Position numbers and translations under genes: made by a program. Under the pieces are notes generated by a model. That model was not told where the DNA came from and searched no databases. It worked only from the letters and a program-made list of their open reading frames with translations. From positions 27,064,101 to 27,128,100 of the forward strand of contig NC_092677.1 of NCBI RefSeq assembly GCF_964355755.1: a stretch of DNA of 64,000 nucleotides. The letters are read 5' to 3'. Source of the stretch: Antedon mediterranea. Taxonomy: Eukaryota; Echinodermata; Crinoidea; Comatulida; Antedonidae. Shown in pieces: positions 190-61,100 of the stretch (positions are counted from its first letter, which is position 1; the number at the start of each line of letters is the position of its first letter).

Positions 190-3100
190 CAATTTTTCTC
201 GGTGTTGCAAGAGTTTGATATTGGTGTTCGGTGAGCGCCTATGACAAGCTTTCTAAAAGCCCTTATCAGAGAGTCTTGACTTGGGTGTCCTTGGTAACAG
301 TTAGGAATAATAGAAAACAGTGGAGACTCGACTGTAAGACAAATACCAACAATAGTATATCTGGCATTTATAAAGTTGACATAAAAAAGAAACATTCACA
401 CTGTGTCAACTACTAGAAAAAATTATGTATGTTTACATACCTTTACTATTGTGATTATCGTTGAGGTGTGGCAAGAGAAACATGTTGATATCAAGTGGTA
501 GATTAGTGGTGTTGGCTCCTGACATCAACCCAGATTGGGTCAAAGAGATTGCACCTGTAAAGGCAAAATGATCATTTTACAGTTTTTACTTCTAATTTCT
601 AATGATGTGTTTGTAACATCTTTAAGCTCTGTCTACACTATAAAACTAGTTTGACAAAAAAAGTTTGAAGTGCTCAAATATGGTAGTGATATGCACAAAT
701 ATGGTAGTGATATGCACAAATATGGTAGTGATATGCACAAATATGGTAGTGATATGACATCATCATGTCCATATATGGGCACATCAAATTTTTTTTGTCA
801 CATAGAGTTTGATAGTGTGTATCGGAGCTTCAGAAAGTACTAAAGAAATAAATCAATAAATCAATTGGGTCTTTACCTTGAATTTTCAATTTTGTGCCTG
901 TAAATATCTTGTCGATATCTTCTTGCATATTTTTCAGATTATTTAGTTCAAAATCTTCTCGTGATGCTTTATTCTGGACAAACACTGCGAATAAATAAAA
1001 TAATTAGTGATATTTCTGTATATTATGCTAAACACTAGTAAAATACTAATGCTTCTCATCATTCAAGACTAACAGTTGCATATTAAGTCCATTAATGTTT
1101 ATTTGAAAAAGAAAATGCATTATATAAAGCCACATGTAGGAAGTTTTTCTATTTACTATCACTTCTGCTGCTGGTCTCTGGTTTGAAAAGGGCATATCAT
1201 CAATGGAAGGAGTGCGTGTCTTTGTTACTTACCTACGCTGGGAAAATACTCAATGCCATCCTCACCATCAGAATTTGGATTAGCAGTTGAAGGTTTTAGC
1301 ATCTCTGCTTTCTTGAGACACTGTAGGAGAGGAATGTCTGCAAACCAATTCTGGACGACAAGTACCACATTGCTAACAGTCATAAGGAACGTTGCCAATT
1401 GAAGAGACTTTTGAAACAAACAGAAAAATAAAAATAAAGAGGTATTTGGATACTGTACATTGGTTATTGAGGTCATGCTGGGTCACTTTTTGTGAAATAG
1501 GGAATTAAGGAATGGTACACTAAACCTAAAGCTCTGTCTACACTATCTATTCAAACTAGTTTGACAAAAGATAGGAGCATCATGTGTTAACTAGCCAACT
1601 CCACAAAGAGACATATAACTTGAACAATATAAACATTCAATTAACACCCCATACATAAATGGTACAGTCCAAAAATGTTATTGCTCAACCATGTATAATC
1701 CCAACATATGTAAATAATCATTTAGTTTTTAAAATGTAAGCATGCTAAAGTATGGAGAGCAATGTATTGACATTGTTCTTTAGCTACTTAAACATGTTAA
1801 TTAATGTATGCCATCTTTGACACTGGACTGCAGATGGGTAACTGCGAGTTCAGAAACACTAATGGCAAAGTGGTAGTGATATGACATCATCATGTCCATA
1901 TATGGGCACATCACATTTTCTTGTCACATAAAGTTTGATAGTGTAGCTTAAGATCTCACCTGTATCTCAATACAGTTCTCAGATGATGTCATTTCTGATG
2001 GGATAAACTTTTCATGGTTGATGAGATAGTCCAACACCGATGCGCTAAGAACTGGTTGAGTGTCTAAGATGATGGTTCGTTGTGATGTCACATAAACGTC
2101 AACGCCAGATGTCTGGTGGCCAGCTAGCTCACGTACATCGGGTGTTTGAGTTTTGAAGATATACGAACTAAAAAGTATAAAAAACAATGAAATATTCACT
2201 GACAAAGGAAATGCTTACACAGTTGTAAGCTTTAGTTTATAAATGTTTGCATCAAACTTGATATGATAAAAGGTGTGATGTGCCCATATATGGATATGAT
2301 GATGTCATACCACTACCATATTTGGGCACATCAAACTTTTTTTGACTAGTTTGATAGTGCAGACAGAGCTATTCTTTTATCCCAAATAAAGTGTATACCT
2401 TTCATCATTGGCCTTGCATCCTGCCAGTAGAGAAGCAACAGTAGACTTGCCAGAGCCTTGTAAGCCAATCACTCCAACAACAAAATAAGATCCTTGGTCT
2501 AAAAGATGCTAATGAGGCAAAGGCAGTCAATTCATGACATTTTGAATACAGTCAAGCATGAATGAATGACAGGGCTATACAGGGCTATAAGGCTATACAT
2601 TTGTTATCCACTACCAAACATTGAAATAAATCTAATGGGCAAATGACCAATCAATTAATGAAATACAGCATATACACAAATGATGACATACAGGGCTATA
2701 CATTTCCTTTTTTATCCACTACAAAACATTCCTATAAACACAACAGGAATAATGACCAATCCAACTAGGAAGCAAAACTAAAAAAATGATCACACCTACT
2801 GGACCTTTTTTTGTTAGACTAAATTTCTAGTTTTCTAGCATGAATTCTGAGCCTCCTTCAATAATCAACATTATATAGATTTTAAAGTACATTTTTCAAG
2901 GTTGGCTGTCTTCAGTCACATAATCTTCCAATAGAAACAGGGTTTTTTACCTCCATTGCCTGATCACTCCAGTGAAATGCCGAGTCAATAAGTTGAACAC
3001 TTTGTTTCATTGGTATCAATGGAGTTAATCTATGGTGGACAGGCACTGTAAGAGAATATAGAAAATATTTTACATAAGCAAGCAGTTAGCAGTTGGGGTA

Positions 3101-4603: not shown

Positions 4604-4930
4604 CCCCCCGGACAACTACCCCCGGACAACCACCACCTGGACCACTACCCCCTTAGGACAACTACCCCTTTAGGACAACTACCCCTTTAGGACAACTACC
4701 CCCCGGACAACTACCCCCTTAGGACAACTACCCCCTTAGGACAACTACCCCCTTAGGACAACAACCCCCTTAGGACAACTACCCCCCGGACAATTACCCC
4801 CTAGGGACAATTACCCCCTAGGAACAATTACCCCCTAGGAACAATTACCCCCCCGAACAATTACCCCCCCCCCCCCCCCCCCGAACAATTACCCCCCCGA
4901 ACAATTACCCCCCGGACAATTACCACCCAG
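4604..4930. repeat. C-rich 18-bp minisatellite (left arm)
   Basis: Degenerate tandem copies of about 18 bp, GGACAACTACCCCCTTAG, drifting to GAACAATTACCCCCC, with a run of 17-18 C near 4867. The same unit appears as its complement at 6070-6245. The G-rich strand has repeated runs of five or more G. Confidence 0.85.
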
Positions 4931-5584: not shown

Positions 5585-6010
5585 GGGTGTTTCGAAACTA
5601 GAGACCCGAGACCCAATACGAAAAGGGAGACCTAAATATACGAAAAGGGAGACCCACGTACGAAAAGGGAGACCCCACTATACGAAAAGGGAGACCCCAC
5701 TATACGAAAAGGGAGACCCCACTATACGAAAAGGGAGACCCTAATATACGAAAAGGGAGACCTAAATATACGAAAAGGGAGACCCAATTATACGAAAGGG
5801 AGACCCAAATATACAAAATGGGAGACCCAAATATACGAAAAGGGAGACCCACTATAAGAAAGGGAGACCCCACTATACGAAAAGAGAGACCACACTATAC
5901 GAAAAGGGAGACCCTAATATACGAAAAGGGAGACCCAAATATAGGTCTCCCTTTTCGTATTGGGTCTCGTGTCAGGTCTCTGGTCTCGGGTCTCTAGTTT
6001 CGAAACACCC
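5585..6010. mobile_element. Mutator-like non-autonomous element with 9-bp target duplication
   Basis: The ends are a 29-bp perfect inverted repeat beginning GGGTGTTTCGAAACTAGAG. The direct repeat GTTAAAAAC flanks it exactly at 5576-5584 and 6011-6019. The interior is a minisatellite of about 20 bp carrying ACGAAAAGGGAGACC. There is no coding capacity. A 9-bp duplication with long inverted repeats suits the Mutator superfamily; the assignment is inference. Confidence 0.75.
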
Positions 6011-6069
6011 GTTAAAAACAGATGATTTCATTTTTACAGAAACCGGTCCTATATATTTAGTAGTAGTTG

Positions 6070-6245
6070 ACCGGGGGGTAGTTATCCTAAGGGGGTAGTT
6101 ATCCTAAGGGGGTGGTTGTCCTAAGGGGGTGGTTGTCCGGGGGGTTGTTATCCTAAGGGGGTAGTTGTCCTAAGGGGGTAGTTGTCCTAAGGGGGTAGTT
6201 GTCCGGGTGGTAAACATCCGGGGGTAACTGTCTAGGGGGTAGGTG
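6070..6245. repeat. G-rich minisatellite (right arm, inverted)
   Basis: Tandem GGGGGTAGTTGTCCTAA units, the reverse complement of the 4604-4930 array. The pair could form a large foldback. Confidence 0.85.
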
Positions 6246-6877: not shown

Positions 6878-6879
6878 TA

Positions 6880-10020: not shown

Positions 10021-13000
10021 TCAAAAAAAGTATGATTTTAAGAGAACAGCAAACAGCAACACGAGTAATATCAATAGGTACTGTGCCAAAGTGTACACAA
10101 AGTTCGTATACCGAACTTTAGATAAACGAGTTTTTGTTGGCTTGATCGTTTTGCGTGTGCTGTCCTCAATTGCGCCAATTGCACCGTCCCACGAGTGTGG
10201 ACCAGTGAGCCGAAATATGTACGGATTGATGGTTCCAAGCGCCAACTTAAGAGCAAGTCTTGGTTTCGTGAATAAGTAAGTCCACGGACTTGGTAGGCAA
10301 CCGATTTCCTTCGCAAGATCCAGAACATACGGTATCCAGAGAACCTGAAAACAAAACACAAAAGAACATATTAATAAAAGATTTTATTGGACAATAGCAC
10401 GTAATAACAAAATTGAATGAGGCAGTCTATGATATCAATCTGGTTATGACTAGTGTCCCCTGTTTCTTATGCAACGCCAGACAGACTTGCAATTTTCCTT
10501 GGCTCCTTTTTGCGGCCATTTAAGTTTAAATAATAATTATTTTTAAGTTGTATACTTACATATGAATGAACACTTCCATGGTCTCTTAAATTTTCTTCCC
10601 TTAGAGTGTTCGCCGCTGATCGCATTACGCTATCTGAGGGCAGTTTGCATTTCCCGCTGAAAACTCTAGCAACCCATCGTGACTGAAGCTCGTACGATGA
10701 CGCTTGGGGTCCGAGACCTTTAGCCAAACCAACTGCTGCAAATGTTGGGTGGCCTGGCAGAAAAATGTACTTGTACAGGTCAAACTTATCTTCCAGAGAC
10801 TCTATTTCAAAATGGAAAGGAATAAAATTAGTATGAAAAGTAATGCTTGCGGTAAGACTTGGTTAGAGATACAACGCAGGCAAGTTGACCAATGACAAGC
10901 CACTGATCGAATAATCCATCACTTGTAATTGGTCAAATCACTTACATTGTGTCTCTAGTGGGAAGCAAGCTCAAGAAACTGGGACAAATAATGAATTTTG
11001 TTGGGAGTGTCTTCAGGCATCAACCTACCTCTCATGCTTTTATCTTCGAGGTATGGGTAATACTTTTTATACCCCGTAGCGAGAATCACCGCTTCAACGT
11101 CTTCTACACGAGAGTCGTCGGCAAACACTACACTGTCCTTTGTCAACATCTTGATTTCTGGTTTTATCTATAAACAATAACACAAAACTATTTATTTATT
11201 TATTATCATCTTTAATGAGGGTGGCCTACCAGTACATCAAATATATACTTATAAAAGTTTATATAACTATTTCAATGTTTACCATAATTATTTATTTTGG
11301 TAGCTGAAAAATTCTGTCTCAGTAGACCTTCATCAGTGCTAGTGTTTTTCTTAATCTCTGTTTACACTATCTAGCTTTACGTAAAAAAAAATGTGATGTG
11401 CCCATATATGGACATGATATATGGACATGATGATGTCATATCACTACCATATTTGGGTGTCATCGTAATATACCTTTAGTTTTCCGCATAATATCTGGTC
11501 ATTAATGGAGTCATTCAACATAATACTCGCCCCGCTATACAACCGAATGTCACTCTCTAAGCCAAGGTCTTCGTGATTCACTAGAGCTCTGAAGACAACC
11601 TCCAGGTACAGCTCCTGGAAGCATTCTGGCATGTAGTTGAACCATCGGGTTAGGATGTGCAAATCCCATGGTCCCGCGCCTCGGAAGGTTCTTCGCATGA
11701 CCCAACATCCTCTACGTGTACTCATGTACGTCTGAAATTAAGAAGAAATTCAGGAATCAGTTGAGGAAACACATCCCTATCTCCATATGCACACATTGAA
11801 TTAATATGAAATTAAATATGGTTAGTACATTAGTAGATTAAGATATCTCATCCCGATATAGACATTTTCAATGCCTATATGGAGATGGGGTACAATGCTA
11901 GAAAAAGATTTAATAATTTACGAGGTTTGTCGAGTTCAACAAAAACCTCCAGATATGTAAAAATTATTATTTTAACAGTTAATATTTATTTACCATGTTA
12001 CTATGACGACTGCAATCAACGGCAACGTCTCCGGCAGAAAATGAAGCTCCTGAAATAGAAACATTGAACATTTAGATTTAAATATAATAAAATTACATTT
12101 TTAAGATGACATTTTTTTGGTCATATCTATGACACGTAGTCTACTCATAGATGACGATAAACTATTTATTTGATTAGATAACCAAACTAAAAGTGTTCTA
12201 AATAAGAACAGTCTGAATTTGTCTTTCCTTTTAAGTAATATTTTGTGTCATGTTACAGAGGTTTTGTATTTCCCATGCAAGTGTTTTTTTTACCAAACAA
12301 ATAAGGTACTGGTACTTTAATGGGATTGGTAACACAACAACCATAACTGCAAACTTAATTAAAATGAATTATGGTAAATGACCTTATTATAAAAATAAAA
12401 TTAAACCAAATCTGCTAAGAACTGAAACCTTTCCAATTTATTACAAATTGCTGGTCGAGGAAGAACATTTCAAACCTAGATCCATCGTTCAGATTTCATA
12501 GTAAAATATAATGAGCAGCGCTATCAACCTATTATTGGTTTAGAGTTGGCACTTAAACTTGGGTTTACAGGGACAATTAGCATGTGAAGTCTGTTGCTGG
12601 TTGATGGTGTCTACAAATTGAAGTATACACTATGTCTAAATTTTCATTTCTTTTGCTTTCAAATGTTAACTCGAAAGAATTCATCTAATCTAAAAAAGCT
12701 ACGGAAATTATTGTTAAATTAACTAACTTCTTACCGAGGACCACAACTTTTTTCCCAATATAATCCGTCCCTCTTCTAAATTCTTGAGAATGATAAACCT
12801 TTCCAGCAAACTCTTGTTGTCCTGGAATATCTGGTGCGTTGGGAGTTCCTTGAAGTCCTGAGGATACTATCAAGGCATCAACTTCAGTTTCTGTAACGTT
12901 ACCATTGTCCACATCTTCTGCAACAATCTTCCATCTACCAGATCCGATGTCGGTTATCTTGGTGACTTTTTGGCCCAGACGAATGTGTTCTTTAAGTTTG

Positions 13001-15575: not shown

Positions 15576-16230
15576 TCTCCATGGTAAAATTAGGCCTACA
15601 GTTATACTGTCTGCCCTGTGTGGCATGGAAGCATCAATAAGGCCCAAATATCGACCATTGAAAGAGTGCAAAAGAGAGTTTTACGTATTATTCTGGGTCC
15701 CGCTTTCCTTACGTATGATTCAGCTCTTGAGCTTACTGATATGACCACTCTCGCATCCAGACGAGAGACGTTGATTCAAAAATTTGGAGAAAGGCTCTTG
15801 AAATCGGAATTGTACAGAACTATTTTGCCCGACTACCGCATTATTAATAGAGAGCTTAGATCAACCACGGTAGATAAACCCCTAATTAATATACCTGTTT
15901 GCAGAACTAACCGTCTTAAGACTTCGCCTGCCTTACCATAAGTAGAATCCTTAATTCAAACAGTACCTGATCACGCTGAAGATGGCTATGTTATAAATAT
16001 TTACATATATTGGCCTATGCATTTGTATATAAATTTTGTAATCTTTTTAACATAACATAATTTTATTTTTTTAACTGATTTTTTCAAATTTTTTAATGTT
16101 TTGTATAAATTTTTGTATTTTTTTTAATGTTTCTGTTTCCATATATTTATATATATATTTTTGTAAATCAACAATTTCAGCCTTCGTGCTGCATGTTTTT
16201 TATTGTATAAACCTGAATAAATAAATAAAA
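15576..16230 (+). mobile_element. LINE 3' fragment (reverse transcriptase C-terminus and 3' UTR)
   Basis: An open frame around 15603-15941 reads VWHGSINKAQISTIERVQKR and VLRIILGPAFLTYDSALE. This is the C-terminal region after the reverse transcriptase domain of CR1/Jockey-type non-LTR retrotransposons. An AT-rich 3' tail ends AAATAAATAAAAAAAATAAA near 16230. It is 5' truncated, the usual outcome of incomplete reverse transcription, and is a dead fragment. Confidence 0.8.
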
Positions 16231-16973: not shown

Positions 16974-19963
16974 TTACATAAAATACCATGAGAGTAGCAA
17001 AGCAGATACCAAAACAAGTACTGCTAACAACGCCTGTTCTGCCAATGTGCGCACGGCGTTCTTATAAGGCACTTTAGGCACGCGCGTTTTCGTAGACTTC
17101 ACCGTTTTACACGGGACTTCCTTAATTGCGTTAGCTGCGCCGTCCCAAGAGTGCGGACCGTTAAGGCGAAACGTGTACGGGTGTACAGATCCTAATGCTA
17201 ACTTTAGTGCGAATCTCGGACTCTTCAACAAGTAACTCCATGGATTTGGTAGGCAGCCGATTTGTTTGGCGATATCCAGAACATATGGCGTCCATTGAAC
17301 CTAAAACCCACAAAAGTATTTTTATATACAGTACGGTACTTATATATATTTGCATAGACTAGCATTTGGTATCAGTAGGCCTATTGAGTTCAGAGGCTCT
17401 GCTCTCAGACTGATAGGCCTTTTTTTTAAATAACTCTTAAATATGAATGTATACTTACATATGCATGAACGCTTCCGCGAGCTGTATTTCCATCAGACAC
17501 TGCCTTGACTTCTGCCTGCATCACGTGGTCTGAGGGCAGTTTGGATTTCCCGCTAAAGACGCGCGCAACCCAACGTGACTGAAGCTCGAACGCTACACCC
17601 TGGGGCCCGAGACATTTTGCAAGACCAAGTGCAGTGAACGTCGGCTGCCCTGGTAGGAATATAAACTTGTACAAGTTGAACTTTTCTTCCAGAGATTCTA
17701 TTGTAACAAATGAAAAGGTAATTTAGAAACTTTCAGCAAAACTCTCAGAAGCAAAATAAATGTTATACTAACTTGGTTCCCACTACGAAATGCAACACAA
17801 GAACGTAAGCGCAACGCAAGGATTTGACCAATCACAAGCGGGATGGATTATTCAAGCATCGTTTCTGATTTGTCAACTCGTCCTTGCGTTGCTGCTAGTG
17901 GGAATAACGCCTAAGTGTTATTCTAGGCTGTAGGCCTACCTCTGATACTTGTATCTGCGATATATGGATAGCATTTCTTATATCCAGTAGCCAGAATCAC
18001 CACATCAACGTCGTCCAAACGGGAACCATCGACAAATTCTACACCGTTCTTTGTCAGCTTTTTAATTTCTGGTTTTACCTATAATCAATGAATATCATTA
18101 TTATAATCCAATGCTTCTTATTGATATAAAAGTAAGCATTTTGTAGGCCATAAAAAGATATATGCCTACACATTCCCTTCCTACACCACCGCACATTCTG
18201 AGGAAAGAGAGATGTGGTCGGGTAGTGGTTTAGGGGACTAGTGAATTGCCAATGGCAAACTACGGTACATTTTAACATTAAGATCGGTAGATATATGTTA
18301 TATTGTTGTATATAGAATAATAGATAAAGTATCACATTCTTAATGTAGTTTTAGGATGACCTTTTTAGGTTCGTAACATTCATGTCTATTTGGCAGGTGT
18401 TTTTACCCCATGCATGGAATCATTTATGGAACGCATTGAGGGCACAGACTCACACGTTGGAAAACACTAGGCCTAATTAAATAATTAAAGATATATTGTC
18501 TCCCCAAAAAAATATTGTTTTCAATCTTTTTTTTAACATGCTATTTTAATGTCACGCAATAGTTATTCACTTCAAAAAATTAAAATTAACCGTTTCTTTT
18601 GTATTTTTATAAGTGAAATAATTATTATTTTGTGTGGTTTTTATTTAAAGAAGTGATTAACTTATTAAATCTAAAAAAGGTCCTATTTAAAGTCTGATTT
18701 TATTAATCTTAATTTTTCATGTTTTTGGGGAACAATACATCTCGTATTGACCAAGTACAAGCTAAGGATTATTCGAACTACCTTTAGTTTTCCGCAAAGT
18801 ATCTGGTCGTTTATTGAGTCATTTATCATGACACTAGCGCCTGCGTACACGTGCACGTCACTCTGTAAGCCCAGGTCTGTGTGATTGACCATGGCTCTGT
18901 AAACCGTCTCTAGATACCACTGTTGTAGGTTGATCGGCATATAGTTAAACCATCGGCTTAGGATGTGTGTATCCCAAAATGCAGCACCTCTGAATGTTCT
19001 TCGCATAACCCAACATCCTCTACGAGTACTTAAGTACGTCTAAAATAAATAACATTGATCAAACAGAGTTGTTTGTTTGGTAAAATGCTAATGTCAAGTG
19101 TGACAATAAGTTCTCAAACAAGCCTTGTGTATTTCAAAACTGTAAAAACCGACTTTATTAGCGCAATTCGCATTCTTCTATTCACCCACTTTATTAACAA
19201 ATACACAGGCAATTCATGATTCGCGCGAATAATATTCTACTGCTACTATTAGTGCAATACAGGTTTTATTGATAACAATATTTGTTACCATTTTACAGTG
19301 ACGGCTGCAGTCAACAGAAACATCTCCGGCAGAAAACGAAGCTCCTGAAATAGAAACGTCGAAACATTTAGATTTAAATATAATAAAATTACATTTAAAG
19401 ATGGCATTTTTTTGTCATAAATGACACGTAGTTTTTGGAATAATAATTTCTATAAAATACTGCTTGATGTTGATTATCTTACCGACAACGACAACATTTT
19501 TCCCAATATAATCCGTCCCTCTTCTAAATTCCTGAGAATGCAGCACTTTTCCAGAGAACTCTTGCTGTCCGGGAATATCTGGTGCGTTGGGTGTTCCTTG
19601 AAGTCCTGAGGATACTATCAAGGCATCAACTTCAGTTTCTGTAACGTGACCATTGTCCACATCTTCTGCAACAATCTTCCATCTACCAGATCCGATGTCT
19701 GTTATCTTGGTGACTTTTTGGCCCAGACGAATGTATTCTCTCAGATTGAAATGCTCGACGTAATTTTGCCAGTATTTTTGCAACTGGGAAGTAGAAGGAA
19801 ATGGTGGGTAATCCTCGGGGAATGGGAAGTCACTCATGCACATCATCTCCCTACTGGTGTTGGTTGTCAGACTATCAAACGTGAGGTTCAAATCCTTCTT
19901 TGTACGCTCATCTTCTGTGTACCAGACTCCACCTATTAACAATAAAACCATTGTCAAAATATA

Positions 19964-25059: not shown

Positions 25060-31465
<6,406 letters not shown>

Positions 31466-39800: not shown

Positions 39801-42722
39801 TTCGTCTTGCTTGCAGTGATCTACAGTTTAAGTTCTATTTATTTGTTGTTTGCCGAAATCATTCAATTCATTTCTATGTAAATTTTTTTTATATATTTTC
39901 AAATGAAAATAAATTTACTTACTTACAATAATCTTGCTTGTTTCAAATTTGATCAGCAATATTCTACAGATTTTATTTCTACTAAAAGTTGTCTAAACTT
40001 TTGGATTTTTTTTATAGCTACATTGCCCCTAACAACGCCAGTAGCAACGACCCCATTCCTAACAACAGAAACAGATGATGTGTCGCAGCCTTGCACAAAG
40101 TATCCGTGTGAAAATGGAGGAACATGTCGACCAATCGGATCTACCAGTTTCACGTGTAGTTGTCCCGAAGGATTCACAGGCTTTGTTTGTCAGGATGGTA
40201 AGATTTACAATGATGAAGTTTATGATGTGCCCAAATATGGTAGTGATATGCCTAAATATGGTAGTGATATGCCCAAATATGGGAGTGATATGCCCAAATA
40301 TGGTAGTGATATGACATCATCATGTCCATTGGGTACATCGTATTTGTTTTTCACATAAAGTGTGATAGTGTAGACAGAGCTTAAGCTCCATTTCCTCTTC
40401 ATATTGATTTTATAACGCATTTGAATTGACTATTTTAGCTCCTAGTGCTTGTGAATCTAACCCATGTATTAATGGAGGATGGTGTAACAAACAGGGCTCT
40501 GGCTTCAGATGCACCTGCCTGGCTGGCTTCACTGGTAAAAGATGCCAAAAAGGTAAATGGTTATTATACTGGTATTGGTTGGTGGATTGGTAGGATTGAG
40601 TAACCCAGGGCATACAATACAAATTATAAAGAGCTGAACTTAAATAGGCATTTGTGGCCGGCTTGCTTCTCCTTGAATCGGCCTATGGGGAGGTGGCATT
40701 TTTTCTAATCAAGATTTCGACAGGAACTGAAAATATATCTTTGATTATTTTTACAATTGATAGAAACATGTGTTGATGAACTTGGAATGGATAAAGGAAC
40801 AATTTCCGATAGTGATATAACAGCAACAAGTTTTTTAACCTCCTCACGACCTTCTGATGCCAGACCCAAAGGGGTCGGCTGGATGCCAGCATCAAATGAC
40901 TATCAACCATACATCCAGGTAATTTATTCAACTTTATTTTAAGCTTTGTCTACATTATTAAACTTTATTTGACAAACATGATGATGTCATATCACTACCA
41001 TATTTGAGAATATCACTACCATATTTGGGAATATCACTACCATATTTGGGAATATCACTACCATATTTGGGCACATCACACTTTTTTTTCCAAACTAGTT
41101 TAATAGTGTAGATAGAGCTTTAGGTAATTGTAAGATACAGTTATGGAAATGCATGATAAATTGAACATATTTCAATAATTTGTTTTTTTATGAACAATTC
41201 TAGGTTGATTTAGGAAAAATGAAGAACATGTCGGCCATCATTTTGATGGATTACCCAGCCTGGTCTGTAGTTGTCACACAGTTCCAACTGTCATACAGTG
41301 CGGATGGTGTCAATTGGGAATTTGTACTGGACGAATATGGTCAACCAATGGTGAGTATACCGGTTAGGGGCATTGATTTGATTTCTTTGTTAGACCTATA
41401 CTGGGTGACCTCTTCAATGCTCCGTTCTCCCAAAAGGCCTGGTGTACAGAACTCTCATCAACACGTTAGGAGATGTGTGATTATTGTACAGGGGATCAAC
41501 AGCTTTACGTCTCATCTGAAGGACGATTAGAAAAAAGTATCTTGCTTAAGGTTAAGTCCATGGAGCACAGATACTCAATTGAATCAATTCTGTTAATTTA
41601 AACCAAAGTCCAAATTCAACAACTTTTGTACAATCAACGTTAGTAATGAAATGTTTTTTTTAAATGAATTAGGAACTACTCGGTCTGACCTATGGTACGT
41701 CCGCTGTACAGATTCACCTGTATGAGCCGATAACAACACGTTACATACGTGTGCACCCCACAAGGTGGATAGGCACTTACCCAGGAATGCGATTTGAGTT
41801 GCTTGGTTGTGATATCGGTGCTCCCTCTATCGTGAATGACTTTCCATTGGTTACACCTGCGACAGGTGTAGCTACTGTACCAAGTGATGCAGTAACATTG
41901 TTCTATGGCTTGAAGGAACGAATCTATAATAGTAAAGACTCACCACAGGTACAGCCATACTTGTACAGTATAGGTTTCTCTGTCTACAAATAGTCACAAA
42001 TAATTGCTACAAGTAATGAACAACTACGTTTATTTTATTATTGTTCATTTTTTTACATTGTAGTTTAAGTCACAGGTCCTTGTGAGAAGCCTCCGAGTGA
42101 AGTTTTCAATTCTAAAAAAAGTTTGAGGGAAGCAAACTTTTTTAAAGCATTCTCTTCTCTCAATTTTGCCTGCTTTCTTGTCCTATTTAAATGTCAGACA
42201 TCTCCATCTAGATTCAACCAAGTTTCCCTTTAATAAGGCTGTCCTCTGAGTAGGTGCTGTAGTGTTACTGTTGCCTATATGAAATTAGCCATTTTCGGTT
42301 TTAGAAGTGTTCTGAATGTATTTAAAACAGACTCTTATGTTTGAAACTTTCCTAAATACATCCTTTTAATTTTTCAGGTGATACAATTTGATTACGAGTA
42401 TTTTGATTATGGTGATAGTTACAACCCAACAACTGGAATTGTCACCATTAAGGTTCCAGGAACGTACCTCATTTTCATCTCGGCCACCAGTACCAACTTG
42501 TACACCCCACCTAGTGTAACCATCATGCATAACAACAACGCACTATTAAGTCAACTTGTTCCCAAACCATCTGCTAATGGATTGCTCAGAGGTGAGATGA
42601 GTGCAGTCGTTGATGCTGAGGATGGGGATAGGCTCTGGCTGGAGATACCCAGTGGTGCTTCATTAGCAGCAGATATTATTAATTCATCTTTATTTATACA
42701 GCTTGTTTCAAAGTCAAATTGA
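36885..42722 (+). CDS. Secreted F5/8C-EGF-C1q mosaic protein
   Basis: Twelve coding exons: 36885-36951, 37398-37702, 37899-38040, 38301-38414, 38971-39278, 39611-39758, 40018-40197, 40439-40552, 40764-40918, 41204-41350, 41673-41948 and 42378-42722 (2301 nt, 766 aa). Residues 1-20 are a signal peptide ([12 protein letters not shown] core). Domains in order: F5/8C (about 23-170, [10 protein letters not shown] to ELLGC), EGF (173-209), F5/8C (211-358, [10 protein letters not shown] to EILGC), a Thr/Pro linker with EGF (about 388-421), EGF (423-459), F5/8C (462-610, [10 protein letters not shown] to ELLGC) and a C1q-like jelly roll (about 630-766, with [18 protein letters not shown]). F5/8C domains bind glycans or phospholipids, and C1q-like heads usually trimerise and bind ligands. 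A secreted lectin-like or matrix role is inference. I know no named gene with this exact order. Confidence 0.88.
38085..38244. mobile_element. Family A MITE, F5/8C gene intron 3
   Basis: Full-length: GCTCCATCTACACTATC left and GATAGTGTAGAGAGAGC right, with two 21-bp units. It starts about 44 bp after the donor at 38040. Flanks are TTAA and TTTA. Confidence 0.85.
40216..40380. mobile_element. Family A MITE, F5/8C gene intron 7
   Basis: About four 21-bp ATATGGTAGTGATATGCCC units and the right end GTGATAGTGTAGACAGAGC followed by TTAA. The left terminus is lost. It starts about 18 bp after the donor at 40197. Confidence 0.8.
40943..41118. mobile_element. Family A MITE, F5/8C gene intron 9
   Basis: Full-length: GCTTTGTCTACATTATT left and AATAGTGTAGATAGAGC right, with four inverted-orientation 21-bp units (ATATCACTACCATATTTGG). 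It starts about 24 bp after the donor at 40918. Confidence 0.85.
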
Positions 42723-44718: not shown

Positions 44719-47700
44719 TTACTCCTTGTACTTCTCTGTTGGTGGCACAACTCGCATTAATTTCTGTAGGAAATATGTGAAGGTTTCTGCAAAAAAAAAA
44801 TGTATCAAAAGTTTGAATCGATCATCAACTTCCTAATGTAAATGTCTGTATGTTCCTCGATTTGCATTCAATGTTCATCTTGATAGATAGTAAGTCAAAA
44901 TGTACAGGAGTGGTTGCCACGACAAGAGAATACAAAGAGTGTGCTGTACATGAAGTTTTGAACATTATTATTTGGCCATATATATATAAACATAAAAAGA
45001 GTTGAAACTATAGGACAGTACTTAAATGCATTGGCGACAGTCATAATATTATTAGGTAATGCTCTGTTTATACAAATAGCTAGTTTGATGTGTGATGTGC
45101 CCAAATATGGTATTGATATGCCCAAATATGGTATTGATATGCCCAAATATGGCAGTGATATGACATCATCAAGTCCATATATGGGCACATCACATTTTGT
45201 TGTCATATAAAGTTTGATAGTGTAGACAGAGCATAGAGTGTGTTGAATAATATAATATACAAATACTTACTGTTGAACGAAAAAGAATATTTCTTGTACA
45301 CAAATGGGAAATATAGAAGAAGTCCGGCGAAGATGAAGATGAGGGCGTACAAGAACTCAAGCTCTGGTTGGTCGATGATAGGGGCAAGGACAAGGTATAC
45401 TGCCGCTAGTAAAACAGCAATTGGCAGGAAAATCGGTACCTATAAGAAAACCAAGTGGTCATTGAAAGATGGATGGTCAGCAGGCTACTCTCGTGGTGGG
45501 ATATGATTGGAATGATTACAATCTATCATGGCTTAAGCTATATTCAACAAACGGAACAATTTAGATTTAACCTTCATTCCTTGGACGCAACACAATTGCG
45601 TACGTACGCGCAACGTAACGCAATTGCTGACGTAAACGAGACATCGAATTCATCGCGTCGTGATTTGTCAAATTGCTTGCGTTGCGCATACTAGGCCTCC
45701 TCCTAGGTCCCCGGCGTTTTAGTGGAAACCAAGCTTGAGATAAGCCCATTGGGATTGTTGTCGAGTCATGCTATAATGTACACCTCTTACCTTAATAGCT
45801 CTCTCCTTATCGGGATATTTATAACGTAGAACAAGAAGAGCAATAAATGTGGCTCCATAAAACATCCAAGCGGCGAAACTAAAGTAGTTGACTAAAGTAT
45901 CGAAGTCGTTTGGTATAATAAATATTATAGCAATAAATGACTGTAAAATAAAACAGTTTTCATATGAATACATTTTATAATGAATACATAAATGGAGGAG
46001 TCATGGTTGGTTGGTTGGTTGGTAAGTGACGTAATGAATAATGAACAACAATGTTGTTTATGATTTAGATGACAACAATGACGCGCTGTATTTTAATTTG
46101 ATTTTAATAATACAGAATGATGTTGATAATGATAATAATGACGATGTTTACATAAATGATGATTCACTAATGTACTGTCGTGATAGTTTGAACTGTGGTT
46201 CTGTTGATCATGACGTGGATGGTGTTGACAATGACGTCATCGATCGTGGATGAACATGGAGATGGTACTCACTGTGAAGACGATGGATGGAAATGGAGTG
46301 AATCGCTTAATATGAATCATTGAAAGAATTTCCATCATGTGACCTTCACGAGCAGACACGAACGCTAATCTATAAAATGGTGGGAAATATGATGTTTAAA
46401 AAAGTACAGAAACCTCTTTCTACTTAGCGTTGACGACTAATGCGCTAGTCTGGGTTCCAGACGGAGTTTTGACTAGTCGTTTGGCGTTTCATACGTGTAC
46501 TACTTGATCTTGTATTTCAGACAAACATCCGCGAAAAACCTCGAAATAACTACAGACTTGGGACAAGTCTAACTAATGCGCATGCGCATTAAACTTTTCA
46601 TCTACTTTTTGTGACGTAAAAATGCTCAACCAATCAGAGCTCAGTAAGGTTTGATTCGCGCGAATATCTTCACTAATGGAACACAGGCGAGCAACCAATT
46701 GCAAGATTCAACTTCCATCTAGTTGCAACTTACCGTCCTGAAGCAAACAGAGCACCATTGGCAGCCCCAAACGTCGAGAAACATACAAACAGTGGTATGA
46801 TCCAAGCCATAACACCAAGAGTACGATCAGCCAAGGTCTAAACAAAAGCAAATACATTCAGATGATTATTCCGTATGACGTCATAACCCAAGATGATATG
46901 GCGTCATAAAGCTTAATTGTTATCAATAATATTATGTGTACAAACAAGGAGATTTGTAGAGGCGTGACTTTATAATGAGAGGTCCATAACATACATGTTT
47001 AATAGAGAACTGTTTACTTGTACACTAAACTGAAATTATGTAAAAGAATATAAATGTCATACCACAGCTACAGCATCAGAAGCTAGAAGTTCCAAAGGTG
47101 ACATGACAGTGAAGTAAGCGATGTTGACCAGGAGGTAGAGGACGATGACCAATGGCATGCCAATGAGAATGGCCAATGGCAGGTTCCTGAAATGAATACA
47201 TTAAATGATTTCAGTTATGTAATAGTCGGTATAGTTGCTGTCATCTAATTATCATCTGCTACAGTATATAATTCCTTCTCATGTTTCACTTTTCAAATCA
47301 TAATTTTTTAAATTCTAGAATTAAATAAATTGTCCTAGATTGGTATGTTATGCTAATATTCACTTCTTTAAAAAATACTTTATGCACTTCTGAATGCCCC
47401 TCTCATTCCGAATCCTTACCTCTTTGGGTTGACCAACTCCTCGGTAACAAAATTTAACTGATTCCTGCAAAAGAAAACAGAGAATAGATTATTATAACCT
47501 ATTTAACTCTTCTTTTTCAGAGTGATGATGTCGTTGACAGATTTGCTATGGGGATTTCGATTTTTTTTTGGCCACATATTGTGTCTTTGCGTCGGTCGTC
47601 GTGTAAACCAGGACAAACTGTGTCGAGAAATCGAGTGTAAAGCGTGTTTTACACACACGCAATGTAATTACGTCACGCAACGCGTAAGCGAGTTGACCAA

Positions 47701-49998
47701 TGACAAGCGACAGTTCGAATGATAGGCCTACTTGTGATTGGTCGTCAAATCACTTACGTCACGTCTCTAGCGGGAACCAAACATTATATTTACCATGAAT
47801 CGTACGCCCATAATCCCTGATAAAATGCAATTCCATAAGCAAATACCCTTGTAGATGATCCCTCGAATGACACGGAAGTGTTTAGATGCTCAGTATGACC
47901 TATGAAAATAACAACATACAGCTGTAAAAACAATTATTTACACAAAAATCATTACAGAAACACTCATACAGAATTTCTGAGCAAATGCACAATGACAATG
48001 TTTATTTTGGAGTATGACGCTACAAGGCAAGCTAATGTTACAAATAGGTCGGATAAACTATTCAAACTAACGCTACTTGTGGTATGTCTGGAGAGTAGCC
48101 TACACAAAAAGGAAAAGGGCAGGTCCTAGACAAAGTTTATATAGTGTATCTTACCTTGACAGAGTCTTACAATTCCAACAAATACAATTATAATAAGTGC
48201 AAATATTTTTGCTGCAGTGAAAATAATTTGAACTCGTGTTGCCCATTTGACACTGTAACTATTGATGAACGCAATTAAAACTAGAAATAAAAAACGAATA
48301 AATAATTTATTAGCATCATAAACAAGAAGGAATATATGCATAGTATTGTATAATACACGGGGCGCAGTTTGCGACATGGTACTTGTCCCTAGCGGCGCCC
48401 CGTAACTATAACATTACATGACAATGCATAATTAATATGTCATAAAGGTTATGGTAGTAGAACATAATGGTATTACTACTAGTCATGTCAGTCTGTTATT
48501 TGTATTAATTTTTTCAAGGTTTTTATACCACTGAAAAGTTCACTCTTCACTATTCCCTGCGGTATTCGTAATGTTAGACCAGACCAGCAATGAATAATGC
48601 TGCTTGGTTCTCACTAGAGACGCAACACAAAGACGCAACGTAAGTGATTTGACCAATCACAAGCGATGAATTATTCGAACTGTCACTTGTCATTGGCCAA
48701 CACGCTTGCGTTGCATTTATGTCCTTGCGTTACGTCATAATGCTTGGTTCTGAAGCGTGGTTCCCACTAGCGACGCAACACAAGGACGTAACGCAACGCA
48801 AGTGAATTGACCAATCACAAGCGATGGCTTATTCGCTTGTCATTGCTAACTGTCTATAACTTCGCTTGTCGTTCGTTGCGTTTTTGTCCTTGCGTTACGT
48901 CATAATGCTTGGTTCTCACTCTTGACGAACCACAAGCGATGATTTATTCGAACTGTCGCTTGCCATTGGTCAACACGTTGCGTTACGTCCTAGTGGGAAC
49001 CAAGCTTAAGTATAAATGCTCTATAATGATAATATATAGATAGTATCAATCATGGAGAGAATAAGCAGCGCTGTATGTTTCAAACTAAGATGTCAGTACT
49101 TACGTATAGCTGTAATAGCAAACAATTTTATAAGATACACCGGAACCTCGCAAGATCCGGAAACAAAAAGCTGTACAAAATATGTTCCAAATGTCAATGT
49201 GATAGCTGCGAGTGAACTCGGCTTTAGAACAATCGCATAAGTCCATGAAAATAGATAAGCTGGTACAGGACCGAATGCTTCGAACAGATAAGCGTACTCG
49301 CCCCCTGACTTGCGTACTAGTGTTCCAAGCTCAGCGTAACACAGAGCAGCTGTCGAGAAAGAAAAAAAAACATATTTATTTTGCGGTAAATAAAAGACAT
49401 TAAAATAACTATTATAATGTGAGAAATTAACAAAAAAACGTTTGCCGAAAACGCGGGCGTATAAGATTACGTTTGACGTATAAAGGAGGCAAGCGTCGTA
49501 CAGATTACGTTTTACGTATGAACACGCGCAATCGGGTGCGTACGTTTATTTACGTTTGACGTATGGGATGAGCACGCACAACAGGAATGTATATAAATGT
49601 ATAGATTATCATTTTTTTTATATATTTAAATTTTCTTTCTTTTAGTACTCAACTCTACTAACTTATTTTCTCAATAATAATAATGAATATCTTCACCTAG
49701 CTGCATACTCCCTAGTGGATATCGATTGGCGATAAACCTACTCGTAATATACAGTACTAATGTATTGGTCTTAATGCACGTTTTTCTCTTATTTGTTTAT
49801 TGTATCACGCAGATACAGTCGACTTAACATATATTGCATATATTGCATCATACAGTATATTATTATTGGCGAGACCCAATGCTTTTTCTTCTCTGTGTTT
49901 TTATTGCACCACCACAGACATAATATTTACATTAAAAAAAGTAGAGAGTCATGCAGCCGCGTGACATATGATCACGACATTGTTAGGTTGCAGGCTGA

Positions 49999-50033
<35 letters not shown>

Positions 50034-52572
50034 ATGCAATAGACGCACCGCATCAAGCCTAACGAAAAAACAGAATGTCTTATCATGTTTTGCTGTCTAC
50101 ACTAGCAGAAACTAGCACCGGTGAAACTAGTTTGACAAAAAAAGTGTGATGTGCCAAAATATGGTGGTGATATGACATCATCATGTCCATATGGGCACTT
50201 CACATTTTATTGTCATATAAAGTTTGATAGTGTAGACAGAGCTTTAGTTAGACATGTAGTCAGCAAACATGATAGGACAATCTGCTTAACAGATCGGTAT
50301 ACAGATGTACCCTTCTGTGCATTACCACGCCCGGTTGGGCTAAAATGATTCGTTAATAAAATGTAGTATAATTAAGGTGTTTCTTAACAAAGCCTTTTAT
50401 TTGTTGAATATTTTCTATGAATCAAAGGGTAGGCCTATATAAAAGTTGAATTTGACCTTTTGTAATATATTCACTATTTATTTTAAAAAAATACAAATGA
50501 ATTCGATTACAAACAAGGCAAGTAGTCTGTTATTGTAATAAGTTTACAAATTATTGTCAAGTACAGTTCAGACTACCTTCACAAAACTCGGAATTGGTTG
50601 TTCATAATTGTTCGTTGATAAAGTACCCGTACACGGTCTATTAAACCTACGTTTTGATTGCTATTACTGCCTGCACCATTTCCAAAATGAATTATTAATA
50701 TTTCATATAGATTGAATTTTTTTAGGGCGAATATCGACAAGAAATGAAGGTGAGAAGCAATCATATGAACGCATCATCACCGATGTTTGATTCCCGTGAT
50801 TGGATTTTAGGCCTGCAACTGATTTACTTTTATTTACTTACTGCTAATCGATTATTGATTTTAGTTGAGTTAACTAATTTCGCAAATCGCACTGTACTGC
50901 CTATGAAATTGTACAGTAGCAGCAGTGGTTGGTTGTGTTGGGCTGAAGAGGTCGATGAATGACACACATCATGATGATGTAGTATAATAACGATGTTGGT
51001 GATGATGATATGAAATATGATGACGGCGACGATAATGATATGATATGAAAGATGATGATATGAAAGATGGTGATGATATGAAGTATGATGATGATTACGA
51101 TGATTATGTATCAGGATGATGATGTCAATAACAGTGATGATGATGATGTTGCTGCTGCTCATGATATGATACATGATGATGCCAAATACATGAGAAAGGT
51201 TATCCATAACTGGGTTTACTATATTGTATACCAGCATTTTATATTAATATCGAACTATAATCCTTGACCAGACCTGGCCGGACATCACGATTTCTAACAA
51301 ACATATGGAATTTGCAACGAACCCAATGCAATCTTATAGACTTGATGATTGTTCAATTGTATGTTTATAAAAGATGTGGGTCGGCGGATCATTCGTTGCT
51401 TTGTATTTAATACCAGCGCACCAGAACAGCATTCGTTTTAACTCACACATAAGTTGAATAAGTTGTATTTTTTTATGGATTTTGATGAAAACGTGACCAA
51501 AAAAGTATTTACTGTAATAACATAACAAGCTAACAGACATTCACAAAATATCCCATCTCAACGAAAATATTTCTCCGAAATGATTATCACAAATGCTATG
51601 GTGGAAATTATATATTTCCTACATGCTAAAACACATTAGTCGTTCTGTTGAATGATATAAAAGTTAGACTATCTGGTACGTAGGCCTATTTAAGTATCTA
51701 AACTATTTCCAGCATGCATACAAACAAACTTGGACCATTTAAATTGTAGTAGGCCTCGACCAAATTAATCCCTGTTCTAGCTGCTTAATTCATATTCCAG
51801 AGCCTTGACTTAGGCAAGGATCAGCAATAATCGCCGTAAGATGGTCAAGAAAATTCTGAATTAAACAGAATGGTAGCTGAAGGCAGAACATGTGGGCGTT
51901 CCTTCTCGTTACTTAATATTTTGAATTTGTATGCCATTATTCATATATGAGTTGGCATTAAATTTCGTTTAGAATCAGAGAGGTGTGTTGTCTACTAGGA
52001 GTAAAACGTAATTTACGCAATTAACGACAGTTCGAATGATTTGTCACGTGTGATTGGTTAGAATTATATGCGTTGCGTGTATATCATTGCGTTGCGTCGT
52101 AGTGAAACCAGGCCTATTGGTGGATTGTCGCGTTAATAGTGAAGTTGGTAATGTTAATGGTGATCTATATTTAATGGTCATCCCTGGTATTTAGTGATAA
52201 TGTATGGCACGCCATGGCGGACATAAATATATCGAAGTCATATACTCATGGGGTTTACACACAAAGCTATCCATCGACATGCACATTGTTACCAAGGCCC
52301 TGGCGTGCCATAATAATGATACTATGGCACACAAAAAAACAATTGGTATACATACCACACGTAGATAAAACTCCACAGGCTATCCAAATGACAAGACTCA
52401 TTCCAACACTATCTGTCTGTCGCAATACCCCCTTAGGGGATATAAATATACCAGATCCTATGATTGTCCCCACTAACAGTGATACTCCAGCTAAAAGGCT
52501 AACTTGACGCTTAAGGACCACTTCGTCACCGCCTCCACCGGTACCCCCATCACCTTTTTCCTTTTCACTCAT
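44719..52572 (-). CDS. SLC7A9-like (b0,+AT-type) amino-acid transporter light chain
   Basis: Light chains of heteromeric transporters exchange amino acids across the plasma membrane, disulphide-linked to an SLC3 heavy chain. Eleven coding exons: 52356-52572, 49104-49349, 48155-48280, 47794-47899, 47420-47464, 47063-47186, 46734-46837, 46273-46369, 45791-45940, 45271-45439 and 44719-44786 (1452 nt, 483 aa). The LAT signature [12 protein letters not shown] is at 35-46. [16 protein letters not shown] and [11 protein letters not shown] are strongly b0,+AT-like, as are [18 protein letters not shown] and [11 protein letters not shown]. The extracellular cysteine that bonds to SLC3 is at about 139 (SGSCEVP). 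About twelve membrane segments are expected. SLC7A9 is my best match by eye; a sister such as SLC7A13 is not excluded. A strong 3' splice site at 52599 implies an upstream non-coding exon. Confidence 0.9.
45061..45232. mobile_element. Family A MITE, SLC7 intron 10
   Basis: GCTCTGTTTATAC left and GATAGTGTAGACAGAGC right, with three 21-bp units. It lies about 38 bp downstream of the donor at 45271/45270. Confidence 0.85.
45579..45734. mobile_element. Family B MITE, SLC7 intron 9
   Basis: Begins CCTTGGACGCAACAC and ends AGTGGAAACCAAGCTT, with GATTTGTCAAATTGC in the middle. About 56 bp downstream of the donor at 45791/45790. Confidence 0.7.
47650..47782. mobile_element. Family B MITE, SLC7 intron 4
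   Basis: GTTGACCAATGACAAGCGAC and its imperfect complement, ending CTAGCGGGAACCAAAC. It is only about 11 bp downstream of the donor at 47794/47793. Confidence 0.7.
48602..49006. mobile_element. Three tandem family B MITEs, SLC7 intron 2
   Basis: Three head-to-tail copies (about 48602-48740, 48757-48906 and 48906-49006). Each begins GCTTGGTTCTCACT or CGTGGTTCCCACT and carries CAATCACAAGCGATG. The last ends CTAGTGGGAACCAAGCTT. Confidence 0.8.
49998..50030. repeat. (AT)n microsatellite
   Basis: About 16 AT repeats in SLC7 intron 1. Confidence 0.9.
50092..50242. mobile_element. Family A MITE, SLC7 intron 1
   Basis: GCTGTCTACACTAGC left and TTTGATAGTGTAGACAGAGC right, flanking the usual core. 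The left end carries about 20 bp of extra sequence. Confidence 0.8.
50990..51185. repeat. Imperfect GATGAT-rich tract
   Basis: A low-complexity region of GATGAT and GATATGA words in SLC7 intron 1. It creates spurious Asp- and His-rich frames. Confidence 0.8.
51990..52113. mobile_element. Family B MITE, SLC7 intron 1
   Basis: CTACTAGGAGTAAAACGTAA left and GCGTTGCGTCGTAGTGAAAC right, around AATGATTTGTCACGTGTG. Confidence 0.6.
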
Positions 52573-57400: not shown

Positions 57401-58122
57401 TTTTTATTTTTATTTTATTTACCGTTAGAGGACGGTAGACGAAAGAAACGGTAATTAAACAAAAAAATAATTTACGCATGCGTGTAACGTCAGTATGTGA
57501 CGTCATTTGAAACTTTTTTCCAATCAATTTGACTGTAAGACAAAGGAATTAGTAATAATTATAATAAAAACTAATTTACGCATGCGTGTTAGCCCGGGAT
57601 GAAACGTTATTTGAAAATTTGCACATGCGTAGAAGTCCAATATGTGACGTCATTTTGAAACTTTGTCCCAATCAAAATGGTCTGGAAGCATACACGGATT
57701 TTGCTGTGGTAAGTTACACGTGATTTAGTTGTTTAACCAAACATATCATATGTACTGTGAATTAAATATGAATCTTCTATTATTGAAGAAAAACATAATC
57801 GTAAGCCCTCTATTTCAGGTTTTGATTTAGGTCCATTTTTTGCTTGGACCACCTAGGCTAGCTACTTGGAGTAAGACTAAGTACTACGACTCTGTCCTGC
57901 GCGGTGCCGAGCGAGCCTGTGTCCCCTAGCTGTCGTCTGCTGCTGTGTTCCCCTGTCACGTGACCAATGTGTTTAGTTTGATCGTCCTGAAATTATATCC
58001 AAAGCTCCAAGAAAGTAACTCGTTTGAAACAATCACTGAATTTGTCACTTATTTTACGTCATCAATAATATAATTAGCAAGAATTAATTAGTTATTGATT
58101 TAATATAAATATATTTTCTTGT
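54412..58122. other. Intergenic, no gene supported
   Basis: AT-rich. Reading minus, AATTTAC followed by GTGAGT near 54954 could be the donor of an SLC7 5' non-coding exon (about 54955-55050). Direct repeats with CRE-like sites lie at 57465-57670. No convincing protein frame. Confidence 0.5.
57465..57670. repeat. Direct repeat with TGACGTCA and GCATGCG sites
   Basis: AATTTACGCATGCGTGT occurs at about 57468 and 57580. GTGACGTCATTTGAAACTTT and its near copy occur near 57498 and 57643. Perfect CRE octamers in a repeated block upstream of nothing obvious; they may be transposon-borne. Confidence 0.6.
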
Positions 58123-61100
58123 TTAACTACTGCGACCGTCGACTAAGTTCTTGGAGAAGGCTCTCTGGTCGACTTTGCTGAACGGGTTGAACGGGTAGGT
58201 TAGCGTCACAGTCTTCGATAACGGCCCCCTTCTACAGTGTGATAAACGATGAAGCATTTCAGATGGAAATGGTCTGTAAAATGTAAAATATGTGTTTGTT
58301 AGTCTGAGCTAGGCTTACTCTCTAAGAAGTGAAATGCGTACCCTTGCTCCCCCGGCGGCCAATCCGAATGTAGGCATGTAACATTATGAAGTAGGCCTAC
58401 CTGAATGAGCTCCTCATTGTACTGCTCGGCGTATAATCAGCAGTTAGCCTGCCCCTTGCCATTGGAACTTCAAGTGGTGTACGAGGTACAAAACCAGCGT
58501 AGCCTGGTGTTTGCCGTACACTAGAAAGAAAATCATTTTATCAATTAATAAAAAACGGAATTGAATTGAAAAGCTTGGTTCCAACTCGAAACGCCGACGC
58601 AATATATGTGAGTTGACCAACTATAGGTGTTTAGCATCTCTTTGGTCTTTCCTTGCATTTTATATTTGTTTTGGTTTTTTATGTATTGTATATGGCAGAA
58701 ATTTAATAAAAAAAAACCAAAAACAAGCGACAGTTGGGATGATTCACGCGTCGTGGTTGGTCAAATTACTTGCGGTGCGCTTACGTTCTTGCGCTGTGTC
58801 CAATTTGGTACAAAGTTTTAACTCACTATGTTGATGTCAGTTTGTCATCTATGGACAATCGATACGTGTTTTCTTTGATTGGCACGTTGTTGCTGCATGG
58901 TCTTTAAAAAACAAAGAAAATGTGTTAATGTTTATAAAATGAAATAAAAAGTTCAATTACATTACAAATAAAAAAATATAATGTTTTAATGATATGTTTA
59001 TAATAATATGCTAATTAATATAAAATTGCTGAGTAATTCTTGGTCCCACTAGAGACGCAACACAAGGACGTAACACAACGTAAGTTAGTGAACCAATCAC
59101 AAGCGATGGATTATTCGAACTCTCGCTTGTCATTGGTTAACACGCGTGCGTTGCGTTTACGTCATTGCCTTGCGTCCTAGTGGGAAACAAGATTGACAGA
59201 TAAGTAACGTACAGTTTATCCATTGTGTGTGTTGCAGCAGTCAACATCTTACGTGTTGAGATACTCGGCACAGTAGATCTCTCCTGCGGTAGGTCCCAAC
59301 GCGTTGCAACACGTTGCCAAAGACGTGGTGCGGATTCGTAACGCTTTGGTTTACTCATGACCAGATCAGCATTTGCTTCCAGTGTGGTTCGTAAAGGTGG
59401 TTTCTGGTTAAAATATTAAAATGATAATCTTTGTTGAATCTTTAAATTTGCAACAGTGGCACAGGATAAAACGTTCACAATGACAGAACACATGTTACAA
59501 ACAATAAAATAGAACAGGTGATTAAAAACAAATGATTATATTATTAATAAGGTAGAATATGAGGTTATTTGTGTTGCTATATTAAAAAATGATGGGCGTT
59601 CAAACTCTAAAAAAGCTTGGTGCCTATTGAACGCAACGCAAGGAGGAAAGCGCGTAAGCTGACTATAATCCCAACAAACGTCGTTTTTTATTGGTCAACA
59701 CTGGGCTTATTTCCTTACGTTCAAGTGGGAACCAAGCTTTATAACGTTCAACTGTTTGTTTCAAATGCTCTTGTCTCTGATTTCGTTTTTCGCATTAGTA
59801 ATCAGCTTGCATTAATTAAAATGAAATATTAATTCATTGAAAATCCTGTTATGAAGCAAATTATAGGGTTCAACGAACTAATTACTATCGGTCACTAGTA
59901 ATAACCCTATTAAACAGGATAAGATAACCACATACTGCCGGCTTAATAAGGTTGATCACAAATAGCTTGATTTCGCGAGGAGAAACGTCATTGCACAATG
60001 CATGATGGGTAGGGTTTGGTACGCGTACGTACAAACAACAAATCACGTACGTACGCGTTGTGACGTTTGCTCCCAAATCCTTCCCATCATGCGTCGCGCA
60101 CGCTATATGATCGCAAATAGCTTGATTTCGCGAGGAAACGTCATTGCACAATGCATGATGGGAAGGATTTTGTTAGCAAACTTCAAGACGCGTACGTACA
60201 AAACAACAAATCACGTACTAATCCTTCCCACCATGCGTCGCGCACGCTATTTGCGCGCGATAAACCTTATTTATATAAAGCTGTGTGAAATGTAATAATA
60301 ATGAGGTCTGAAGTTAGCAATCATGATACCTCAATGACAGGCAAACAAGCCTGTTCGGTAGCCGCTCTAGTAGTGGATTTCCACCTGAAAACGCTACACA
60401 ACTCGTCAATGGTTTCTTTATCAACCTCTTCCGAATACTCATCAACGTTATTAGCTTCTGGTAAAGCTGGCAATGCCTCCGAGATATTCGCTGCTGGTTT
60501 GTGATACTTCTGTGGCTTACCACCAGTACTCAAGTTTGGTTCAACTTGGAAGTCTAAAGGCGCTGGTGCTCTTACTATAGGCTTGTCATGAAACAGTCTA
60601 ATAAAATAAATAAGAAATAATTGAAATCTTTAATGTGGTGGTCTTATGATCTGATAGATAACCATGCTCAATGATCAGATTTTCTGTCCGATATTTGACA
60701 AAATTATACTTCTTTCAAAACGTGGGAATTCACTGAGTTATGCTTAGGTGATGTGAAGGGATATTAGCTTACTATCTAGACTATAGGCCTATATTAATTG
60801 ATTCGAGATGACGCTGCCGTTTTTGATTAAATAATTTTATTTTGTATAGGCTAAACATTGATAAAAATAGTTTTGACCTCGATTGCCATGAAACCAACAA
60901 AAGTATTATTGTATAATTATGAAGGGAATTTGTTTTTTCCTTCATGGTATAGGCCTAACTATATTTTGTCTCAAGAGTAGATTTCGTTCTGATAAAAAAA
61001 GTGATATATATCGAAAACGCCTATTGGAAAAAAAGAATACCCCCAATGACTACGACATGGGGCAAGTCTATCTTCCAAAGTAAGTTGTTATTGGAATGAG

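Follow-up and report, generated by a model that had tools for sequence, protein, structure and literature searches.

A modest donor-side skew of two putative PIF/Harbinger-like MITE families in introns of Antedon mediterranea

In a 64,000-nucleotide stretch of the Antedon mediterranea genome (NC_092677.1, 27,064,101-27,128,100; hereafter, the window), copies of two short element families, A and B, lie close to 5' splice sites. An earlier note, made from the sequence alone, described such copies in at least 14 introns, saw few equally close to acceptors, and suggested insertion targeting, selective retention or an introner-like link between the elements and their introns. It also cautioned that short introns inflate the effect and that a null model was needed. 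Here, we ask which of these explanations agrees with the element positions in the window and in other genes of the host genome (354 Mb in 18 contigs).

The intron models of the seven window genes came from spliced alignment to homologues and hand reading. For the FMOs, SMG9, SLC7 and DDX6, we used a purpose-written spliced protein-to-DNA aligner with homologues of solved structure; the homologue reference sequences of these housekeeping proteins were in part reconstructed. The exons obtained with the aligner were stop-free and joined at GT-AG sites. The exons of the F5/8C gene and of a gene for a 337-aa protein were hand-read directly from the sequence, and a Pfam search gave no identity for the latter. 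The seven genes contain 50 introns with GT-AG ends, with a median length of 308 bp. The window also carries tandem arrays (4610-4852, 5616-5943, 6074-6204 and 31127-31476). A 17-bp unit forms two inverted arrays with a 22-bp array in between, and a 67-bp array starts just beyond the aligned DDX6 coding end. A 115-aa open frame at 15594-15938 resembles the terminal part of a non-LTR reverse-transcriptase ORF and had no Pfam match. An Rfam scan of the window returned no matches.

Families A and B were mapped by profile HMMs whose source copies came from the window and from other loci; the element edges they define could be several bp out. A rough first look at the whole genome gave 3367 candidates for A and 2703 for B. 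The window holds 21 intronic A/B elements, listed in Table 1 together with one weak fragment. The 14 donor gaps listed earlier were all reproduced within 1 bp on the rebuilt gene models, and the 14 elements indeed lie within 60 bp of a donor. The list was nonetheless incomplete, as it omitted seven elements in DDX6, SLC7 introns 1-2 and intron 2 of the 337-aa gene, none of which is within 60 bp of a donor. The scarcity near acceptors was also borne out: only 4 of the 21 elements are within 60 bp of one, the smallest acceptor gap being 45 bp by profile edges, and 18 are closer to the donor than to the acceptor.

Table 1. Family A and B elements in introns of the window (window positions; gaps in bp).
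Element	Positions	Strand	Host intron	Donor gap	Acceptor gap	Remark
A	626-828	+	SMG9 intron 8 (876-555)	48	71	- strand gene
A	1531-1947	+	SMG9 intron 6 (1959-1408)	12	123	interrupted or longer copy
A	2255-2370	-	SMG9 intron 5 (2398-2168)	28	87	
B	10854-10971	-	FMO1 intron 5 (11028-10802)	57	52	
A	11355-11458	-	FMO1 intron 4 (11473-11168)	15	187	one end missing
B	17770-17908	+	FMO2 intron 5 (17939-17698)	31	72	orientation opposite to FMO1 copy
B, weak fragment	18747-18794	+	FMO2 intron 4			E=4e-4; overlaps donor (18781); excluded from tests
A fragment	26422-26467	+	DDX6 intron 2 (26299-26647)	123	180	
A	27378-27503	+	DDX6 intron 4 (27292-30187)	86		
A fragment	29315-29386	-	DDX6 intron 4	2023	801	deep in intron
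A	38085-38245	+	F5/8C gene intron 2 (38041-38300)	44	55	
A	40216-40381	+	F5/8C gene intron 6 (40198-40438)	18	57	
A	40943-41119	-	F5/8C gene intron 8 (40919-41203)	24	84	
A	45061-45232	+	SLC7 last intron (45270-44787)	38	274	
B	45579-45734	-	SLC7 intron 9 (45790-45440)	56	139	
B	47650-47782	-	SLC7 intron 4 (47793-47465)	11	185	
B, cluster of copies	48594-49015	+	SLC7 intron 2 (49103-48281)	88	313	
A	50092-50250	+	SLC7 intron 1 (52355-49350)	2105	742	deep in intron
B	52020-52116	-	SLC7 intron 1	239	2670	
B	58570-58817	-	337-aa gene intron 4 (58826-58521)	9	49	interrupted
B	59040-59191	+	337-aa gene intron 3 (59212-58902)	21	138	
B	59607-59745	+	337-aa gene intron 2 (60329-59404)	584	203	

Uniform placement within the same introns predicts 8.2 elements within 60 bp of a donor, against the 14 observed (P ~0.001). 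The relative position u = d5/(d5+d3) averages 0.28 instead of the expected 0.5 (P=0.0002 or less). As the window is the discovery sample, its P values are optimistic; moreover, sample sizes are small, and all P values given here are nominal, with no adjustment for the many statistics computed. The warning about short introns was well placed. Several of the 14 elements are near-central in very short introns, with donor/acceptor gaps of, for example, 57/52 in FMO1 intron 5 and 44/55 in F5/8C intron 2. When the 45-50 bp before acceptors were closed to insertion, the window expectation rose to 11-12 elements near donors, with P=0.03-0.16 depending on the statistic. Nothing clear emerged for orientation near donors (A, 16:8 vs 25:18 elsewhere; B, 5:4 vs 8:4).

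As an independent sample, we took regions elsewhere in the genome encoding CCT chaperonins and a mitochondrial-type relative, cullins, myosins, adaptins and kinesins. The genes were found exon by exon with Pfam, and their introns came from a small window-trained gene finder anchored on the Pfam matches. Run unanchored at nearly the same setting, the finder recovered 49 of the 50 window introns exactly, the window being its training set. The sample comprised 314 introns with 71 A/B elements, or 313 and 70 after one gene-duplicated insertion was dropped. Within 60 bp of a donor lay 21 of the 70 elements, compared with 11-15 expected under several nulls (P=0.001-0.03), and 8 were within 60 bp of an acceptor (~12 expected). 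The mean u was 0.43. Excluding the last 45 bp before acceptors brought the expected mean u to 0.447 (observed 0.430, P=0.29), but the donor-proximal count still exceeded expectation (21 vs 14.2, P=0.018). In a within-intron likelihood fit, the zone 7-60 bp downstream of the donor had a relative density of 2.37 (95% CI 1.28-4.06), and the 45 bp nearest the acceptor one of 0.70 (0.25-1.65), the latter not significant alone. The cleanest subset, 111 introns with both flanking exons supported by Pfam, contained 18 A/B elements, of which 9 were near donors (3.9-5.2 expected, P=0.005-0.03) and 1 near an acceptor, with a mean u of 0.33. Masking other repeats (7.7% of intron sequence) changed the skew little. 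The gene models outside the window include false exons (a reverse-transcriptase-like frame in CUL_a, a tandem repeat in AP_c, a doubtful exon in CCT_g); by reading, one of the 21 donor-proximal elements depends on a doubtful exon (CCT_g intron 5).

The window pattern might still be mainly chance, combined with the post-hoc choice of a striking short-intron pattern, with no bias genome-wide. The window fraction (14/21) does exceed that of the independent genes (21/70; Fisher P=0.004), the CCT and cullin genes alone give a mean u of 0.46 (P=0.21), and in the kinesin genes the donor-proximal 60 bp are free of copies. On the other hand, donor-proximal counts are above expectation in both large sets (CCT and cullin, P=0.04; myosin and adaptin, P=0.015) and in the Pfam-supported subset. 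Hence, we regard chance as an unlikely explanation. The donor skew is real but modest, and smaller outside the window; the asymmetry between donors and acceptors thus persists under null models, in a weaker form than the window suggested.

Two duplications were noticed outside the window. The cullin genes L032 (C5, 3.24 Mb) and L034 (C1, 30.5 Mb) are recent duplicates, with more copies near 3.37 and 3.40 Mb of C5. They share a family A copy located 18-19 bp upstream of an acceptor, which indicates that elements are able to persist very near an acceptor. On C3, ~20 Myosin_head exon matches, nearly identical to one another and covering model positions 342-408 and 563-641, are spread over 5.5 Mb (19.6-25.1 Mb), and would represent an amplified myosin gene or fragment.

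Full-length copies of both families start with AGCT and have TWA flanks; the terminal sequences are AGCTCTGTCTACACTATC and AGCTTGGTTCCCACTAG. Among full-length A copies, the 3-bp flanks are identical in 15 of 54 and the 4-bp flanks in only 1 of 54. The commonest A flank pairs are TAA/TTA (9), TTA/TTA (8) and TAA/TAA (7); B copies were few. These flanks conform to the 3-bp TWA target-site duplication of PIF/Harbinger-type MITEs, and for some copies, with TAA on the left and TTA on the right, a 2-bp TA duplication is possible as well. Before insertion, the site reads as the palindrome TC-TWA-GA (the 9-bp target is written TCTWAGA). C precedes TWA in 53% of insertion sites (11% background), and T stands one position on in 56% (37%). 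With a matrix scored on its own training sites, 86% of insertion sites score among the best 15% of TWA sites. The families therefore also display the extended palindromic 9-bp insertion preference of PIF/Harbinger-type MITEs. From the ends and target, we infer that A and B are non-autonomous PIF/Harbinger-like MITEs, which probably used the same kind of transposase. MITEs of the PIF/Harbinger type are moved by ORF1 together with a DDE transposase from their superfamily. The earlier note treated them as two unrelated families. With common AGCT ends and a common TWA target, however, they are not independent witnesses of the skew. The B consensus contains the donor-like AACGTAAGT, and both consensus sequences contain moderate acceptor-like sites; a link between these splice-like sites and element position was not established. 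Inside the A copy of SMG9 intron 6, a 228-bp segment (1646-1873) recurs inverted at 29394-29621 with 96% identity, adjoining the A fragment in DDX6 intron 4, and is probably a longer A-related subfamily.

Does the target draw the elements to donors? Good target sites occur at 11-12 per kb 6-61 bp after donors and at 11 per kb deep in introns. Consequently, the idea that TA, TWA or the 9-bp site directs the elements to donors was rejected, and with it a sequence-based form of the insertion targeting proposed earlier. On the acceptor side, good sites fall to 4 per kb at 6-20 bp before the acceptor, and the weighted target density 20-40 bp before it is ~0.7 of the deep-intron level. The target sequence exerts no draw toward donors, yet it keeps some elements off acceptors.

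Per kb of TE-free intron, A/B copies number 1.1-1.3 in the zone 7-61 bp downstream of donors, compared with 0.4 in the zone 7-61 bp upstream of acceptors. At 61-101 bp from either splice site the figure is 0.7, and deep in long introns it is ~0.2-0.3. Around 20% of the independent-sample introns hold an A/B copy, with little dependence on length, meaning that the number of copies tracks the introns and not the amount of sequence in them. This could reflect younger sequence in long introns or, alternatively, a preference for short introns. As a control, profile-based families grown from 14 seeds of unrelated repeats yielded 72 copies in the same introns. Of these, 21 (29%) lie within 60 bp of donors (17.9 expected) and 14 near acceptors, with a mean u of 0.44. 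Pooled in this way, they match the A/B elements of the independent genes (30% near donors, mean u 0.43), a similarity that would also suit chance as the source of the window skew.

A further explanation is that the first ~60 bp of introns are favoured for the insertion or retention of A/B elements, beyond the effects of target sequence, intron length and acceptor constraint, e.g. because chromatin is open at exon ends or because recruitment is coupled to transcription. The density just after donors, ~5x the deep-intron level per kb, would agree with it. So would the within-intron fit, in which the unrelated repeats have a relative donor density of 1.07 (0.52-2.01), against 2.37 for A/B. Likewise, in the Pfam-anchored introns the donor/acceptor counts are 9/1 for A/B and 7/8 for the other repeats (mean u 0.55), so the skew there is found in A/B only. 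Nevertheless, the numbers are small, the pooled raw fractions do not separate A/B from other repeats, and target sites are no denser at donors. Short introns, together with younger sequence diluting long ones, can also mimic such a preference. We consider this explanation rather doubtful.

It was also proposed that the elements are linked to the origin of their introns, as introners are. A published introner search required similarity to start no more than 5 exonic or 10 intronic bases from both boundaries (PMC9860276). No A/B element has both gaps within 15 bp, and usually 49-200 bp of non-element intron sequence is left around the element. The sole pair of introns alike to both boundaries belongs to the recently duplicated cullin genes and is unrelated to the elements. 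FMO1 and FMO2 have all six intron positions in common and differ in their insertions: in intron 4, the A copy is present in FMO1 only, and in intron 5, both have B copies in opposite orientations and at different positions. Thus, the FMO pair offers no case of an intron missing together with its element, and its introns are older than the elements. The splice sites in the window are all outside the elements. A partial exception is intron 10 of adaptin AP_e (L048/L049), where an A fragment starts ~3 bp downstream of the donor (GAAAG|GTAGGGCTCTGTC), making the element end part of the donor site. That about one-fifth of introns carry a copy whatever their TE-free length, and that the element at 58570-58817 occupies most of a 306-bp intron, would be expected if A/B insertions had created their host introns. 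Still, given the lack of reach to both boundaries and the FMO differences, the introner origin was rejected, and we consider it highly improbable.

Selective retention, the third earlier suggestion, is the best-supported cause, in the form of a shortage of targets near acceptors and a presumed purging of insertions there, although it does not fully explain the residual donor-zone excess. We consider it somewhat probable that A and B are PIF/Harbinger-like MITEs residing in introns that predate them and are often short, and that their retention is limited toward the acceptor. According to this model, the elements would have inserted at TCTWAGA sites in already existing introns, many of which measure only ~60-200 bp once the element is subtracted. 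Insertions past the first few donor bases would be tolerated, while the final 20-45 bp of the intron would harbour fewer, because the T-rich tract has few good targets and because damage to the branch point or polypyrimidine tract would lead to purging. In short introns, such limits would often leave the survivors within ~60 bp or so of the donor. The purging near acceptors is something we infer, as is any cause of the remaining donor-zone excess. Four observations speak against this retention model. The donor zone exceeds the mid-intron density, an excess that would not follow from acceptor exclusion by itself. The measured depletion near acceptors is, taken alone, not significant. Some independent elements lie 19-35 bp from acceptors, so exclusion is not absolute. 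Finally, the other repeats in Pfam-anchored introns have no acceptor deficit.

Compared with known systems, A and B resemble introners in being non-autonomous DNA elements located in introns (PMC9860276). Introners, however, reach both boundaries and create the intron, whereas A and B do not reach both, and the FMO introns predate the A/B insertions. The resemblance to Tourist-like or PIF/Harbinger MITEs is closer. Like mPing, for which a 3-bp duplication and an extended 9-bp insertion preference were described (PMC2836001), A and B are short and non-autonomous and have terminal inverted repeats, flanks fitting a 3-bp TAA/TTA duplication, and an extended 9-bp preference; unlike mPing, some A copies have flanks that would fit a TA duplication equally well.

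In human and mouse, intronic TEs are much rarer near acceptors than near donors, which was ascribed to the length of the splice signals (~6 bp at donors vs 20-50 bp at acceptors), and they are depleted near both intron ends (PMC3088655). Should the donor-zone excess of A/B prove to be genome-wide, it would run counter to the rule that transposons keep away from exon edges, and would illustrate how MITEs lengthen short introns while leaving splicing intact. If it does not, A/B would be another case of splice signals shaping transposon survival. As in the mammalian underrepresentation zones (PMC3088655), the acceptor side in our introns is poorer in elements than the donor side; in contrast to them, the donor side is enriched over mid-intron rather than depleted.
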